From: a virus
Strand: one strand, 5' to 3'
Length of the DNA: 47,340 nt
IMG/VR virus record: IMGVR_UViG_3300044970_001657
Span: 1-47,340 of that record
Of the stretch, positions 26,460 through 44,440 are shown in pieces. The notes beneath the pieces were generated by a model. It saw only the letters and a program-made list of their open reading frames with translations. It was not told where the DNA came from and did not search any database. The translations under genes were made by a program, and so were the position numbers. How positions within the stretch are numbered: position 1 is the first letter of the stretch; every line of letters starts with the position of its first letter.

Positions 26460-26545
26460 AGACATAGTCTCAGGTGTTGACACTGAGATGAACTACTTGG
26501 CATCTGCACTTCAGCAGTGTAAGTCCAAGTTTACCCAGGAGAATC

Positions 26546-26944
26546 ATGGGAGTTCGTCTCTACCCCAACACCAAGGACGCCGCCAAGCTGGAGAAGCTTG
26601 CAGGTGTGCCACAAGGCACGATGGCGTTGCTCGAAATCCTTAAGGAGGCCGAGCAGCTATATCGTGCTGCACATCCAGAGGCAGATGCATGTGAAGTTGG
26701 TTACAGCTTCTATTGCATTACCAAAGGATCTGACGTGGCACAACTTGACAACTTCCTTTCCGAAGGCTGGGGCAAGTTCCAGAGTTCAGATCTTCTTTCA
26801 GGAGAAGATGTGTACTGTGGAGCAGCACCAGTTGGCAAATTAGCTTGCCAGCTACTCCTCAGGAGTTCTGGAGCTATGCCGCATTGGGACCAGCTTGATG
26901 CTCTCGACATCATTGTCGAAGCAGAAGGAGTCCACTGGGGTTAA
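26546..26944 (+). CDS. hypothetical cyanophage-type protein, 132 aa
   Basis: Begins MGVRLYPNTKDAAKLEKLAG with a good Shine-Dalgarno (AGGAG). The middle contains EVGYSFYCITKGSDVAQLDN and the end LDALDIIVEAEGVHWG. It resembles small conserved proteins in cyanophages whose function is unknown to me. The last codons (positions 26934-26940) form the 5' strand of the acceptor-like stem of tRNA-like element 1, so coding and RNA structure overlap. Confidence 0.65.
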   Translation: MGVRLYPNTKDAAKLEKLAGVPQGTMALLEILKEAEQLYRAAHPEADACEVGYSFYCITKGSDVAQLDNFLSEGWGKFQSSDLLSGEDVYCGAAPVGKLACQLLLRSSGAMPHWDQLDALDIIVEAEGVHWG

Positions 26945-27007
26945 GGCGTGATGCCGGGGGATCGAATCCCCTCCCCAGTATTGCCACAATCCCGTGGCAT
27001 CTACGGA
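26934..27007 (+). ncRNA. tRNA-like intergenic element 1 (type II)
   Basis: A 7-bp acceptor-like stem ACTGGGG (26934-26940)/CCCCAGT (26973-26979) stacks on a 5-bp T-like stem GGGGG/CCCCT with a 7-nt loop ATCGAAT (26956-26972). A mini-hairpin GGC/GCC lies between them. Downstream, TGCCAC/GTGGCA (26982-26999) forms a hairpin whose loop TCC can pair with GGA (27005-27007). Confidence 0.7.
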
Positions 27008-27015
27008 GTAACACC

Positions 27016-27195
27016 GTGTCTCAGCTCATTGCTACCTACGTCCTGATATCTGCCGCCATCATGGGCATTGGTGCCCAGATTACTGTCCATCAGTTGGACA
27101 AGGCTACTGCTAAACAGTGCATCACGCATGATTGGCCTAAGGAGGCTGATCAGATTCACCGTGACTGGTGCCTTGGCGCCGGTTACAAAATCTGA
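27016..27195 (+). CDS. small single-span membrane protein, 59 aa
   Basis: Starts GTG at 27016. An N-terminal hydrophobic segment (LIATYVLISAAIMGIGAQI, residues 4-22) is followed by a polar tail with two Cys (KQCITHDW and RDWCLGAGYKI). It is probably an inner-membrane or exported peptide. A similar layout occurs at 29081-29281. It lies between tRNA-like elements 1 and 2, and its stop codon TGA is inside the acceptor-like stem of element 2. Confidence 0.6.
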   Translation: MSQLIATYVLISAAIMGIGAQITVHQLDKATAKQCITHDWPKEADQIHRDWCLGAGYKI

Positions 27196-27265
27196 GTCCG
27201 TTTAAGCGGCACTGGCAGGTGCAAACCCTGCCTTCAGTATTGCCTACCAGGGAGATAGGCACCCT
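27192..27265 (+). ncRNA. tRNA-like intergenic element 2 (type I)
   Basis: CTGAG (27192-27196) pairs with TTCAG (27233-27237). A CCG/CGG mini-hairpin follows, then a T-like arm GCAGG-TGCAAAC-CCTGC (27215-27231). Downstream TGCCTA/TAGGCA (27241-27261) has a loop AGGG (27249-27252) that matches CCCT (27262-27265), a covarying variant of the GCGG/CCGC pairs in other copies. Confidence 0.7.
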
Positions 27266-27285
27266 ACAAACTTCAGTTCAGCACC

Positions 27286-27468
27286 ATGATCTACACAGTA
27301 CAAGTCAAGCGTGACTACAACAACCCTTGCGCTGATTACACCTTCGCAGATGCATACTTCCAGGGATGCGAGCAAAGCTTTAATACAGAGCAAGAAGCTC
27401 GTCAATACCTCAATACATTTGAGGATTGGGAGCGTTACTTGCTCACAGTAGACGCATTCCCTTTCTGA
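27286..27468 (+). CDS. hypothetical small protein, 60 aa
   Basis: Begins MIYTVQVKRDYNNPCADYTF, acidic and aromatic-rich, with a likely beta-alpha-beta fold (YLNTFEDWERYLLTVDAF). It resembles 27555-27734 and 28347-28514 in size and style (beta-strand start, acidic end), so these may be distant paralogues. There is no Shine-Dalgarno; the leader ends CAGTTCAGCACC. The stop codon is part of tRNA-like element 3. Confidence 0.6.
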   Translation: MIYTVQVKRDYNNPCADYTFADAYFQGCEQSFNTEQEARQYLNTFEDWERYLLTVDAFPF

Positions 27469-27538
27469 GTCCGTAAAAGCGGCATGCCTGGGTGCAAACC
27501 CCAGGCTCAGACTTGCCTACAGCGGAGATAGGCACCGC
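27464..27538 (+). ncRNA. tRNA-like intergenic element 3 (type I)
   Basis: This is the best-paired copy. TCTGAGT (27464-27470, including the stop TGA) pairs over 7 bp with GCTCAGA (27505-27511). Then come CCG-TAAAAG-CGG (27471-27482) and a T-like arm CTGGG-TGCAAAC-CCCAG (27488-27504). Downstream TGCCTA/TAGGCA (27514-27534) has loop GCGG matching CCGC (27535-27538). Confidence 0.75.
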
Positions 27539-27554
27539 ACACATGGAGTTATCC

Positions 27555-27734
27555 ATGGAATCAACAGCCAAAGTTTGGGTTGTTACCGCATGGGAAGAAG
27601 AGTACCAGCATCAACAGCTTTTCGCCAAGGAAGTAGATGCCAAGGCATGTGCTTCCAGGTGGGAAGATGACTTGCTGGACTCAATAGAAGTCAAGTTTGT
27701 TGACCTCTGGGAAGAAGATGTTCTTCCCTTTTAA
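27555..27734 (+). CDS. hypothetical small acidic protein, 59 aa
   Basis: I choose ATG 27555 (MESTAKVWVV) over ATG 27543 because aligning the leader with that of 28073 puts the start here. It has a beta-strand opening (KVWVVTAWEEE), a helical middle and an acidic end (FVDLWEEDVLPF). No family recognised. It is flanked by tRNA-like elements 3 and 4. Confidence 0.6.
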   Translation: MESTAKVWVVTAWEEEYQHQQLFAKEVDAKACASRWEDDLLDSIEVKFVDLWEEDVLPF

Positions 27735-27735
27735 C

Positions 27736-27801
27736 GCCTGATGGTGCAGGAGGGGTTCGACTCCCCTCCCAGGTATTGCCTACAGCGGAGATAGGCACCG
27801 C
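27736..27801 (+). ncRNA. tRNA-like intergenic element 4 (type II)
   Basis: It has the most tRNA-like loop: AGGGG-TTCGACT-CCCCT (27751-27767), a canonical T-loop sequence. GCCTG (27736-27740) pairs with CAGGT (27770-27774). Downstream TGCCTA/TAGGCA (27777-27797) has loop GCGG matching CCGC (27798-27801). Confidence 0.72.
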
Positions 27802-27815
27802 ATCAGCTCAGCACC

Positions 27816-27986
27816 ATGGACATTACCTACGGTCAATTGTTTCAATTCATGGGTACTTTTACAAACCAACAGCTTGATGACGCTCAGGTCATCGCATATA
27901 ACCTTCACGACAAACTAGGAAGAACTTACAACCAGGCACTGGTTGACATACTTATTGAAATACGTAAGGAAGAATTAGCAAGCTGA
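27816..27986 (+). CDS. hypothetical small protein, 56 aa
   Basis: Reads MDITYGQLFQFMGTFTNQQL followed by a helical stretch (DDAQVIAYNLHDKLG and ALVDILIEIRKEELAS). It is mostly alpha-helical and acidic, with no membrane segment. No family recognised. The leader CAGCTCAGCACC has no Shine-Dalgarno. It is flanked by elements 4 and 5. Confidence 0.58.
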   Translation: MDITYGQLFQFMGTFTNQQLDDAQVIAYNLHDKLGRTYNQALVDILIEIRKEELAS

Positions 27987-28054
27987 TCCGTTAAAGCGGG
28001 TGACCAGGTGCAAACCCTGGTCCTGTTATTGCCTACAGCGGAGATAGGCACCGC
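27984..28054 (+). ncRNA. tRNA-like intergenic element 5 (type I)
   Basis: Starts at the stop TGA. CCG-TTAAAG-CGG (27988-27999) is followed by a T-like arm CCAGG-TGCAAAC-CCTGG (28004-28020), extendable to 7 bp. An acceptor-like stem is not well supported here. Downstream TGCCTA/TAGGCA (28030-28050) has loop GCGG matching CCGC (28051-28054). Confidence 0.65.
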
Positions 28055-28072
28055 ACACACGGAGACACTTAC

Positions 28073-28264
28073 GTGTTCTACGTAATCCTCAACGGCGTAC
28101 AGCATAGCGTCTACTTCTGTAAAGAAGAGGCGATGGAAAACGCTGCACAACTGGACTTTATCTACAACTCACCTGAGTTGAACGATGGAGTACAAGGTGA
28201 CAACAAGGTCGAGCTACTCACTCTCCCGGAGATGATGATGTCCGACGTTGAGATGGTCATCTGA
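28073..28264 (+). CDS. hypothetical small acidic protein, 63 aa
   Basis: GTG start at 28073. Begins MFYVILNGVQHSVYFCKEEA, with a beta-strand pair, helix and acidic C-terminus ending in a Met-rich stretch (LPEMMMSDVEMVI). Its opening resembles 28347-28514 (MIVYVVMLED), so the two may share a fold. Codons near 28247-28252 form one strand of the acceptor-like stem of element 6. Confidence 0.6.
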   Translation: MFYVILNGVQHSVYFCKEEAMENAAQLDFIYNSPELNDGVQGDNKVELLTLPEMMMSDVEMVI

Positions 28265-28329
28265 CCAGGCGTGAGCCGGGGGATCGAATCCCCCACTCAA
28301 CTATTGCCCCCTGTGGAGATGGGCACCAC
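28247..28329 (+). ncRNA. tRNA-like intergenic element 6 (type II)
   Basis: GTTGAG (28247-28252) pairs with CTCAAC (28296-28301). GGC-GTGA-GCC (28268-28277) precedes a T-like arm GGGGG-ATCGAAT-CCCCC (28278-28294). Downstream TGCCC/GGGCA (28305-28325) has loop GTGG (28313-28316) matching CCAC (28326-28329), a third covarying combination. Confidence 0.7.
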
Positions 28330-28346
28330 ACAGTTTAGGTCCAGTC

Positions 28347-28514
28347 ATGATCGTTTATGTTGTCATGCTTGAAGATCCATACGCTTCTCACTTCTGTGGA
28401 GTGTATGGTACCAGGGAAGCTGCTGAGCATTATGTGCGTTCAGTAGATGACTTTGATGATGAACATTACAACATCTCTGCAGTACCAGTGCAAATGCTGG
28501 TTACTGACAACTGA
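28347..28514 (+). CDS. hypothetical small acidic protein, 55 aa
   Basis: Reads MIVYVVMLEDPYASHFCGVY then a helix (REAAEHYVRSVDDFDDEHY) and a closing strand (ISAVPVQMLVTDN), a likely beta-alpha-beta mini-fold. It is related in style to 27286-27468 and 28073-28264. No family recognised. Its last codon and stop form the 5' strand of the stem in element 7. Confidence 0.6.
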   Translation: MIVYVVMLEDPYASHFCGVYGTREAAEHYVRSVDDFDDEHYNISAVPVQMLVTDN

Positions 28515-28577
28515 TCCGTCTAAGCGGGTGACCAGGTGCAAACCCTGGTCCAGTTATTGCCACCCACTGAGGGTGGC
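28509..28577 (+). ncRNA. tRNA-like intergenic element 7 (type I)
   Basis: AACTG (28509-28513) pairs with CAGTT (28551-28555). CCG-TCTAAG-CGG (28516-28527) and a T-like arm CCAGG-TGCAAAC-CCTGG (28532-28548) follow. The downstream hairpin is a plain 7-bp GCCACCC/GGGTGGC (28559-28577) without the extra loop pairing seen in most copies. Confidence 0.68.
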
Positions 28578-28594
28578 TTACAACTCAACTCAAC

Positions 28595-28783
28595 ATGACC
28601 GCACTCAACCTGCGTAAGAACACTGCTGAGCTGCTAAAGCTCTCTGCTAAAGCTATCGAGAATGCCAAGGCACCTAACATGTCTACTGTTGGTGCCAAGT
28701 TGATCGAGTATCGTATCCGTGCGGCAGCACTCATGATACCGAACGACATGGCATTCGTTATCACACCTAAGACTGACGTCTGA
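28595..28783 (+). CDS. hypothetical small helical protein, 62 aa
   Basis: Reads MTALNLRKNTAELLKLSAKA then IENAKAPNMSTVGAKLIEYR, basic and helical, ending with VITPKTDV. The leader is CAACTCAACTCAAC directly before ATG, with no Shine-Dalgarno. It is the last gene of the tRNA-like-punctuated array. The next intergenic element is of a different kind (28785-28832). Confidence 0.58.
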   Translation: MTALNLRKNTAELLKLSAKAIENAKAPNMSTVGAKLIEYRIRAAALMIPNDMAFVITPKTDV

Positions 28784-28784
28784 C

Positions 28785-28832
28785 TCCTGCACTAAGGGCC
28801 TACGGGCCTTTTCTGCAGGACTCAACATCCTG
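28785..28832 (+). promoter_or_regulatory. three-strand attenuator-like element, copy 1
   Basis: TCCTGCA (28785-28791) pairs with TGCAGGA (28814-28820), enclosing a hairpin AAGGGCC-TACG-GGCCTTT with a UNCG tetraloop and TTTT. The same TGCAGGA can instead pair with TCCTG (28828-28832). The arrangement is conserved with different bases at 29283-29331. Confidence 0.62.
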
Positions 28833-29080: not shown

Positions 29081-29281
29081 ATGAACGACAACTATCTCAG
29101 AAACTCTGTGATTGCCATCGTTATGGGCACAGGAGTAACCATGTTGCTATCTGCTGGAGCACAGAAACTTATCAACAACTATCACGTCAAGCATTGCCCG
29201 GCGAAGCCAGGGCATCAACTGGTGTACATACCAGGCTTTCTAATCGATCGATTTTATTGCCTGGATAAGCGTACACTCTGA
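29081..29281 (+). CDS. small membrane-anchored protein, 66 aa
   Basis: ATG 29081, one base after the previous stop. The hydrophobic span at residues 8-26 (SVIAIVMGTGVTMLLSAGA) is followed by a basic tail with Cys (HVKHCPAKPGHQLVYIPG and DRFYCLDKRTL). The layout parallels 27016-27195. Probably an inner-membrane peptide. Its role is unknown. Confidence 0.58.
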   Translation: MNDNYLRNSVIAIVMGTGVTMLLSAGAQKLINNYHVKHCPAKPGHQLVYIPGFLIDRFYCLDKRTL

Positions 29282-29282
29282 C

Positions 29283-29331
29283 GTTTGCACTAAGGGGCTT
29301 CGGCCCTTTTCTGCAGACCTCACCGTCTGCA
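29283..29331 (+). promoter_or_regulatory. three-strand attenuator-like element, copy 2
   Basis: GTTTGCA (29283-29289) pairs with TGCAGAC (29312-29318) around a hairpin AAGGGGC-TTCG-GCCCTTT and TTTT. TGCAGAC can alternatively pair over 7 bp with GTCTGCA (29325-29331). Arm sequences differ from copy 1 but keep both alternatives. Confidence 0.65.
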
Positions 29332-30148: not shown

Positions 30149-30199
30149 GCCTGGGCTTTTTGTAAATGTAAGTCCCAGTTTGATCTTTGTTTTATTCAA

Positions 30200-31339: not shown

Positions 31340-31384
31340 TACATAAGTATTATCAATCACCCCACAATGGGGTGATCCTACTCA

Positions 31385-31412
31385 CGTCCTGAGTAAGACG
31401 TTAAACTGCTCA
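31385..31412 (+). ncRNA. putative H-type pseudoknot, copy 2
   Basis: Stem 1 is CGTC (31385-31388)/GACG (31397-31400). Loop TGAG (31390-31393) pairs with CTCA (31409-31412) after TTAAACTG. It ends 22 nt before ATG 31435. Confidence 0.62.
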
Positions 31413-31434
31413 CCGTTCTATCTCAACTCAGACC

Positions 31435-33856: not shown

Positions 33857-33861
33857 TTCAT

Positions 33862-33885
33862 GGACCTGGGATGTCCTTAAACTCA
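33862..33885 (+). ncRNA. putative H-type pseudoknot, copy 6
   Basis: GGAC (33862-33865)/GTCC (33873-33876), with TGGG (33867-33870) pairing CTCA (33882-33885, one G-U) after TTAAA. It ends 24 nt before ATG 33910, and its sequence is close to that of the copy at 39427. Confidence 0.6.
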
Positions 33886-33909
33886 TCCAGTCCAACTCAA
33901 CTTCATCTC

Positions 33910-34359: not shown

Positions 34360-34366
34360 TGTCACA

Positions 34367-34393
34367 CGTCCTGGACATGACGCTAAACTGTCC
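34367..34393 (+). ncRNA. putative H-type pseudoknot, copy 3
   Basis: CGTC (34367-34370)/GACG (34379-34382), with GGAC (34373-34376) pairing GTCC (34390-34393) after the CTAAACT linker. It lies 90 nt before ATG 34484, with a second hairpin between. Confidence 0.62.
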
Positions 34394-34444
34394 ACTTACT
34401 ACGAATTTACTTTTGCGCTAGAGTCTGTCTAGCCCGCACAGGCT

Positions 34445-34705: not shown

Positions 34706-35150
34706 GTTTAAGCCAATCCTATCTTGTCCTGGTTACCAGGTTTCTGCTTGTGGTCAAATCAAAGGTCCTAAAAAAGTATTAAAGCTTTATCAAAATAAGA
34801 ATGGCTATTTAATGTTTAAACCTGGAAACAACAAACCTTCTTACTATGTTCATAGAGCTGTTGCTGAGACATGGAACATCAAAGGAGAAGGTACTTATGT
34901 GAATCATATTGATCACAACAAGTTAAATAATGTTGCTATCAATTTAGAGTGGTGTACTGCAAAGCATAACCACGATGAGTGCGTTAAGTTTTTAGGTAAA
35001 CACCCATCTCAACGTTTAACTCAAGATGATAGGGAGTTAATTTTTTCCCTAAGAGAAAAAGGTTATAGTCAAAGAGCTATTGCAAAAGAAATTTCTTGCA
35101 GCCAAGCACATGTTTGGCGTATTTTAAATCTTGGCATCCAAAAGGTGTAA
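34698..35150 (+). CDS. HNH homing endonuclease with C-terminal HTH, 150 aa
   Basis: The N-terminal NUMOD4-like start (YQVSACGQIKGPKKVLKLY) is followed by an HNH core (VHRAVAETW, then YVNHIDHNKLNNVAINLEWC, His70/Asp72/His73) and a C-terminal helix-turn-helix (KGYSQRAIAKEISCSQAHVW). It is AT-rich compared with adjacent genes. It ends 11 nt before tRNA-Leu, a typical location for a free-standing endonuclease targeting a nearby conserved sequence. Confidence 0.85.
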   Translation: MTEFKPILSCPGYQVSACGQIKGPKKVLKLYQNKNGYLMFKPGNNKPSYYVHRAVAETWNIKGEGTYVNHIDHNKLNNVAINLEWCTAKHNHDECVKFLGKHPSQRLTQDDRELIFSLREKGYSQRAIAKEISCSQAHVWRILNLGIQKV

Positions 35151-35161
35151 GTCCAAGTGAT

Positions 35162-35247
35162 GCAGACATGGCGGAATAGGTAGACGCAACGGACTTAAAA
35201 TCCGTAGACCTTTGGTCGTGAGAGTTCAAGTCTCTCTGTCTGTACCA
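35162..35247 (+). tRNA. tRNA-Leu (anticodon UAA), CCA encoded
   Basis: A complete 86-nt cloverleaf. The acceptor is GCAGACA/TGTCTGT and the anticodon stem CGGA/TCCG has loop CTTAAAA, giving UAA. It has a long class II variable arm and a T arm GAGAG-TTCAAGT-CTCTC. The 3' CCA is encoded (35245-35247). It would support Leu UUA/UUG codons, common in the AT-richer phage genes. Confidence 0.97.
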
Positions 35248-39384: not shown

Positions 39385-39426
39385 CACCAAATCCTTTGCG
39401 CCGCAGAGGGTCTGGTAAGATTCAAT

Positions 39427-39450
39427 GGACCTGAGATGTCCCTAAACTCA
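39427..39450 (+). ncRNA. putative H-type pseudoknot, copy 7
   Basis: GGAC (39427-39430)/GTCC (39438-39441), with TGAG (39432-39435) pairing CTCA (39447-39450) after a CTAAA linker. Compared with copy 6 the loop changes GGG to GAG, turning a G-U into an A-U pair with the same CTCA. It lies 36 nt before ATG 39487. Confidence 0.62.
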
Positions 39451-39486
39451 TTCATTAGCCCAGCTTATCAATCACATTCAACACCA

Positions 39487-43067: not shown

Positions 43068-43072
43068 CTGCT

Positions 43073-43099
43073 CGTCCCAGGTAAGACGTTAAACTGCCT
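43073..43099 (+). ncRNA. putative H-type pseudoknot, copy 4
   Basis: CGTC (43073-43076)/GACG (43085-43088), with AGGTA (43079-43083) pairing TGCCT (43095-43099, one G-U) after TTAAAC. It ends 21 nt before the SSB start at 43121. Confidence 0.6.
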
Positions 43100-43120
43100 T
43101 AACAACTACTTCTCGAACAC

Positions 43121-44386: not shown

Positions 44387-44391
44387 GTCAC

Positions 44392-44418
44392 CGCCTCGGG
44401 ATGGCGTTAAAAGCGTCC
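44392..44418 (+). ncRNA. putative H-type pseudoknot, copy 5
   Basis: CGCC (44392-44395)/GGCG (44403-44406), compensatory to the CGTC/GACG of other copies. GGAT (44399-44402) pairs GTCC (44415-44418, one G-U) after a TTAAAA linker. It ends 22 nt before ATG 44441. Confidence 0.58.
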
Positions 44419-44440
44419 ACGTCCAAACCCTGAACAAACC

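Follow-up and report, generated by a model that had tools for sequence, protein, structure and literature searches.

An anticodon-less tRNA mimic between the small genes of an S-EIV1-like phage and in picocyanobacteria: a candidate RNase Z cleavage signal

Seven intergenic elements in a phage operon

The IMG/VR record IMGVR_UViG_3300044970_001657, all 47,340 bases of which form the window analysed here, belongs to a phage of the lineage of S-EIV1, a freshwater Synechococcus phage. The genes for DNA polymerase A, the single-stranded DNA-binding protein and thyX are the same in the window and in S-EIV1, which was also the sole relevant match in a BLAST search against named phages. At the start of a rightward operon, seven tRNA-like RNA elements (26934-28580) separate eight small open reading frames (ORFs) of 55-132 amino acids (aa). 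The element reproduces the acceptor arm, T arm and elbow of a tRNA without an anticodon arm, and it probably tells the tRNA-trimming enzymes of the cell where to cut the message.

The initial annotation had described seven elements with three T-loops, and this description was borne out: TGCAAAC is found in copies 2, 3, 5 and 7, ATCGAAT in copies 1 and 6, and the canonical TTCGACT in copy 4. A descriptor composed of the T-loop, a minimum of 11 pairs out of 12 and the 3' motif N-TT[G/A]CC matched exactly these seven elements and nothing more on the + strand of the window, and matched in 0 of 40 whole-window shuffles. When the 3' motif was omitted, shuffles of the region gave a mean of 0.06 matches against the 7 observed.

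All features of the array lie on the + strand, and the bit scores given for copies 2, 3, 4, 5 and 7 come from R1, a covariance model built on the phage class. The 132-aa ORF that precedes the array (26546..26944) ends within copy 1, where its TAA stop codon occupies 26942-26944. Copy 1 (26934..26980) is built of 7 bp plus 5 bp, with its loop at 26961-26967 and an unpaired A26980, directly after which the RNase Z cut is predicted (26980/26981). It is followed by a module termed H2 (26981..26999), which is UU and a hairpin GCCAC/GTGGC with the loop AATCCC, then by a hairpin bearing GGAG and by the GTG start, at 27016, of a 59-aa ORF (27016..27195). Copy 2 (27191..27239; 6+6, loop 27220-27226, unpaired A27239, 43.2 bits) leads into module P (27240..27265), in which UU is followed by a pseudoknot of GCCTA/TAGGC with AGGG:CCCT, and then into a 60-aa ORF (27286..27468). 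Copy 3 (27464..27512; 7-bp T stem plus 5, loop 27493-27499, unpaired C27512, 47.8 bits) is followed by a module P with GCCTA/TAGGC and GCGG:CCGC (27513..27538) and by a 59-aa ORF (27555..27734). Copy 4 (27736..27775; 7+5, 8-nt insert ATGGTGCA, loop 27756-27762, unpaired A27775, 27.1 bits) precedes a module P at 27776..27801 and a 56-aa ORF (27816..27986). Copy 5 (27981..28028; 7+5, loop 28009-28015, unpaired A28028, 72 bits) contains an in-frame TGA and precedes a module P at 28029..28054 and a 63-aa ORF with a GTG start (28073..28264). Copy 6 (28247..28302) pairs GTTGAG/CTCAAC and GGGGG/CCCCC with one A-A mismatch, and has a long insert and its loop at 28283-28289; its module P (28304..28329) shows a compensatory change to GCCC/GGGC with TGTGG:CCACA, and a 55-aa ORF (28347..28514) comes next. 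Copy 7 (28509..28556; 7+5, loop 28537-28543, unpaired A28556, 79.3 bits, E 2.5e-17) is followed by a module termed H1, UU with a hairpin GCCACCC/GGGTGGC (28557..28577), and by a 62-aa ORF (28595..28783).

Across the arrays collected, the median spacing of consecutive copies is 275 nt. Under a stricter clustering of ORFs, 22 of the 27 ORF families had more than one downstream neighbour family, which indicates that the genes have been exchanged while the linker was kept.

Helix, elbow and flanking modules

The core of the element is a coaxial helix resembling the stacked acceptor and T arms of tRNA and closed by a T-loop, and in every copy of the window it totals 12 bp. The initial annotation had assigned this geometry to copies 1 and 3 and shorter versions to others; the assignment holds for those two, but all seven copies have it, with one mismatch each in copies 2, 5 and 6. 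The branch point shifts between 5+7, 6+6 and 7+5 while the sum remains constant. Since the next outer, 13th pair is formed in only 16% of copies, the helix ends at 12 bp.

Pairing was examined in homologous loci, drawn from 185 distinct copies that three pattern scans of IMG/VR yielded from related viral contigs. A set of 53 gapless sequences of one class was picked by insert and T-loop, not by pairing. In this set 97.9% of cells are paired, and the strands lose their complementarity when slid by 1-3 columns (31-54%). The stem covariation seen within the window was confirmed, with changes on both sides in 11 of the 15 pairs, although the copies are related by descent and these counts are not counts of independent events. 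The covariation score was 0.60, compared to 0.19 in shuffles, and none of 500 shuffles scored as high. The pairing of the helix is thus proven by compensatory change. Moreover, G-U pairs are common, with about 51 cells, and A-C oppositions are rare, with about 5, which indicates that the folded molecule is the sense-strand RNA.

The mini-hairpin had been taken as a replacement for the anticodon arm; it is instead a mimic of the D arm, because the last two bases of its loop covary with residues 2 and 3 of the T-loop. Among 159 copies, the pair equivalent to 19-56 of tRNA is G-C in 147, A-U in 7 and C-G in 1, and that equivalent to 18-55 is A-G in 139, C-G in 9 and G-U, the form of tRNA, in 7; some of the four exceptions are due to the scripted drawing of the loop. 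In the gapless alignment the 19-56-like pair is GC 15 times, AU 5 times and CG once. Covariation matching the tRNA pairs 18-55 and 19-56 indicates that the element forms the elbow of a tRNA although it has no anticodon arm. Only in the class with the ATC loop (type B, copies 1 and 6), which has a GNRA-like loop, is such docking not evident. Taken as a whole, tRNA mimicry by these elements is strongly supported.

On the 5' side, the element of the main phage class incorporates the upstream gene's stop codon, TGA or TAA. The frame that ends at this stop has a median open length of 79 codons, compared to 16 and 6 for the other two, and in about 155 of the 185 phage copies the longest upstream frame terminates within the element. 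The initial annotation had often placed the upstream stop codon in the 5' strand; it is in frame and lies inside most copies. The bases at -1 and +1, where RNase P would cut, are not conserved.

On the 3' side, one unpaired base is followed by a near-invariant UU: in a set of 65 copies not selected by the 3' motif, the first position is T 60 times and the second 63 times. Directly after it stands one of three unrelated modules, the pseudoknot P or one of the plain hairpins H1 and H2. This second module, which comprises the N-UU and a hairpin or covarying pseudoknot and leads towards the next gene, had been overlooked in the initial annotation. The pseudoknot is represented by 43 distinct sequences of fixed length, and one pair of its second stem is CG in 28, UA in 8, GC in 5 and AU in 2. 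After many of the pseudoknot copies comes a hairpin that bears GGAG and overlaps the start codon. In these small hairpins, exemplified by ACGGAGTAACACCGTG, the 3' arm covers the start codon; they occur mainly after pseudoknots, and are seen at 27004-27018 of the window and at many related loci. Genes that follow the plain hairpins have unstructured CAACTCAACACC leaders.

Related elements in phages and picocyanobacteria

Covariance models carried the search beyond the window, and copies were found in S-EIV1, in its relatives and in picocyanobacteria. R1 detected two copies in S-EIV1 and further copies in 8 of the 10 related IMG/VR records tested. Within the family to which a Prochlorococcus genome belongs, R1 matched 36 of 300 genomes and R2, a model built from the host copies, matched 48 of 300, with two copies in 21 of these. 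Class-wide samples of 242 and 145 genomes gave no match outside that family, and their only matches were genomes already known from the family search. A scan of bacterial genomes with an exact pattern returned nothing, whereas the covariance model did find the host copies. The element is therefore a feature of the S-EIV1 lineage that is present in host genomes too, and the earlier remark that no phage family is known with this arrangement is superseded.

Most of the host copies that were read follow a conserved, Lys/Ala-rich histone-like gene at a distance of 6-20 nt from its stop codon, in some cases with a rubredoxin gene downstream, and a second copy stands at a paralogous histone-like gene about 11 kb away. 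The first carries the T-loop residues TGC with AAG in the mini-hairpin, and the second mostly TTC with AGG. The two paralogous genes (for example L272:1976-2464 and L334) share a conserved N-terminal domain and a Lys/Ala-rich tail ending in RPARRAR; each has the element in its 3' untranslated region (UTR), and neither matches a Pfam family above cut-off. In a further host class, the element lies in genomic islands upstream of a DUF932 gene, mostly with TGA inside it and a UU-hairpin after it. In Cyanobiaceae islands (L250, L252-L258) it is followed by a hairpin GCCGG/CCGGC with a T-run and then by the DUF932 gene. The presence of two island copies in one genome (G093) suggests that these islands are mobile elements.

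No Rfam 15 family matched the elements at gathering cut-offs, host loci included, so this is a structured RNA family without an Rfam entry. Copy 1 scored 21.1 bits with the tRNA model, below its 29-bit cut-off; apart from this sub-threshold hit, Rfam at gathering and permissive thresholds and ARAGORN reported only the real tRNA-Leu at 35162. The elements are not tRNAs, as they lack an anticodon arm and are missed by tRNA models, and homology to a particular tRNA gene, which defines t-elements, is not indicated by any Rfam tRNA match at gathering score. Their location at message ends or between cistrons is that of tRNA-like mRNA processing elements. A transfer-messenger RNA (tmRNA) was rejected as an identity; ARAGORN called none in the window. 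Searches of open-licence literature turned up no account of such an element in cyanophages, and two papers on Prochlorococcus non-coding RNAs (the Yfr series) gave no sign of it.

Possible role in message processing

The reading that we favour, at slightly better than even odds, is that the elements are cleavage signals for the RNase Z of the host. RNase Z, the enzyme that matures tRNA 3' ends, cuts 3' of the discriminator base. As a non-coding tRNA mimic, with its D-arm-like hairpin docked in the T-loop at the end of the 12-bp helix, the element would recruit this enzyme to the polycistronic early transcript, and the cut would fall between the single unpaired base and the near-invariant UU, as in host tRNAs that lack an encoded CCA. 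The upstream small message would then keep its stop codon and gain a tRNA-like 3' end to which CCA could be added. The downstream message would begin with the UU-hairpin or UU-pseudoknot, and this terminal structure is expected to present the ribosome-binding site and to shield the message from 5'-end-dependent decay. For the histone-like mRNA of hosts, the element would make the 3' end.

Several observations point in this direction. Cleavage by Bacillus subtilis RNase Z increases about 200-fold when a uracil lies no more than 2 nt from the discriminator (PMC10100781), and the flexible arm of the enzyme reads the tRNA elbow (PMC4810234). Most tRNAs in the sampled stretches of two host genomes lack an encoded CCA and have a 3' trailer beginning with U, such as tRNA-Phe (A|TTGCG), and RNase Z genes were found in 28 of 31 host-family genomes. 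The NUU site, the U-starting trailers and the presence of the enzyme in hosts together make RNase Z the best fit. It can also be seen that all three unrelated 5' modules begin directly after UU, which argues for a cut before UU, and the position of the host homologues, with 6-20 nt between them and the stop codon of a conserved gene, likewise counts for RNase Z. An in-frame stop inside the 5' strand is compatible with RNase Z, which leaves it in the upstream message, and awkward for RNase P, which would cut before it at unconserved flanks. Of the punctuation by RNase P or RNase Z proposed in the initial annotation, RNase Z thus fits the sequence best, while RNase P is less favoured, and punctuation by RNase P only is disfavoured by the overlapping stop codon.

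Other points weigh against cleavage by RNase Z. Bacterial RNase Z usually acts on transcripts already freed of their 5' leader by RNase P, and here it would have to cut despite a long coding leader. The ATC-loop copies have no obvious 18-19 partner, and the host histone-like copies have no conserved downstream hairpin. Additionally, the preference for U is known from B. subtilis (PMC10100781), not from picocyanobacteria.

A double cut, in which RNase P and RNase Z together excise a tRNA-like RNA of about 45 nt in the manner of mascRNA or tRNA punctuation, appears unlikely. In its favour, RNase P shares the elbow and the 12-bp acceptor/T ruler as determinants (PMC4810234, PMC11693755), and at the host histone-like genes, whose stop lies upstream of the element, such a cut would be harmless. 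In the phage, however, it would take away the stop codon and silence the message upstream, so that about 155 of 185 copies would leave nonstop messages, and the bases flanking the site show no conservation. We give a distinctly smaller chance to a translational element, in which mimic and pseudoknot are bound by ribosomes for termination-reinitiation or standby loading without cleavage. The built-in stop codon and the GGAG in the pseudoknot loop and in the hairpin over many start codons would suit it, and viral tRNA mimics can engage ribosomes (PMC4810234); host histone-like copies, however, often have no close co-directional gene downstream, the pseudoknot GGAG is about 25-40 nt from many starts, and the constant NUU would be superfluous.

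An element that sets the 3' end or half-life of the message without endonucleolytic cleavage, as an exonuclease roadblock or a binder of tRNA-binding proteins, seems improbable: the 3'-UTR placement in hosts and the stable 12-bp helix agree with it, but it leaves the phage NUU and the immediately following, separate 5'-hairpin module unexplained. Least of all do we expect a DNA-level recombination site between gene cassettes, similar to integron attC. Small ORFs, one element per stop and the shuffled gene order recall such cassettes, yet a search for tyrosine recombinases came up empty in all seven records covered, namely the window, S-EIV1 and five related ones, and the tolerance of G-U but not A-C reflects sense-strand RNA pairing; on these grounds the idea is largely refuted. 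The T-loop and elbow covariation also speak against it, as do AAC/GTT ends that are not invariant and outer three pairs that vary.

Among known systems, the closest analogues are plant mitochondrial t-elements and mascRNA, the latter nearest in shape. The t-elements are tRNA-like sequences adjoining mRNA ends that are cut by RNase P and RNase Z, define mRNA 5' or 3' ends, and are CCA-tailed without being aminoacylated (PMC11658184); the phage elements differ in lacking the anticodon arm, in standing in tandem at stop codons before a UU-hairpin module, and in being bacterial or viral. In mascRNA and menRNA, a reduced D arm docks in the T-loop through contacts like 18-55 and 19-56, and the elbow recruits RNase P and RNase Z (PMC11693755), but these are single-copy mammalian RNAs at the 3' ends of long non-coding RNAs, they keep an anticodon-like stem, and RNase P makes the upstream 3' end. 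The TMERs of murine gammaherpesvirus 68 (MHV68) also place a viral tRNA-like element before hairpins, with tRNase Z in their processing; they are RNA polymerase III transcripts that yield microRNAs, with no ORFs between copies (PMC4838037). The tRNA-like domain of tmRNA similarly joins acceptor and T arm without a normal anticodon arm, but has a CCA, alanylation identity and a tag ORF, none of which the phage elements possess. Mimics of the turnip yellow mosaic virus (TYMV) type are linked to viral mRNA and have a near-canonical elbow; they are aminoacylated, with a pseudoknotted acceptor at the genome 3' end, whereas the phage elements are internal with a plain-helix acceptor. In the early region of phage T7, RNase III sites cut the early polycistronic message; these too are intercistronic RNA structures of a phage, but they are long hairpins and not tRNA mimics.

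The present family brings covariation-proven tRNA tertiary contacts to aquatic phages and Prochlorococcus-type hosts, and offers a minimal substrate of natural origin on which to study how RNase Z and RNase P recognise the elbow. If cleavage occurs, bacterial mRNA would be punctuated in tRNA style with no functional tRNA involved; this would explain how individual messages arise from a phage operon of tiny early genes, and tie viral to host mRNA-end formation. The chances are about even that picocyanobacteria and S-EIV1-type phages share this anticodon-less mimic as a general mRNA-end signal cut by RNase Z; bacterial tRNA punctuation would then exist without tRNAs, once per histone-like gene in the host and in tandem arrays in the phage.

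Other repeated structures in the window

Nested hairpins directly 3' of a stop codon, of the form CTGCA...GGGCC/GGCCC...TTTTCTGCAG, occur as paired copies at 28779-28829 and 29277-29327 and constitute another class of intergenic structure. The motif TGTAAGTCC(C)AGT recurs 3' of ORFs, two of them apparently HNH-like, at 26515-26535, 30160-30185 and 35145-35160; these sites include one close to where the array begins and one ahead of the tRNA-Leu. A second intergenic RNA-like repeat is a short H-type pseudoknot, for example CGTC-CTGAGTAA-GACG-TTAAACTG-CTCA, whose stems change yet match. It is located at 31383-31413, 33860-33889, 34365-34395 and 39425-39454, and also at 43071-43101 and 44390-44419, with similar copies in S-EIV1 (L167, L168) and other loci.

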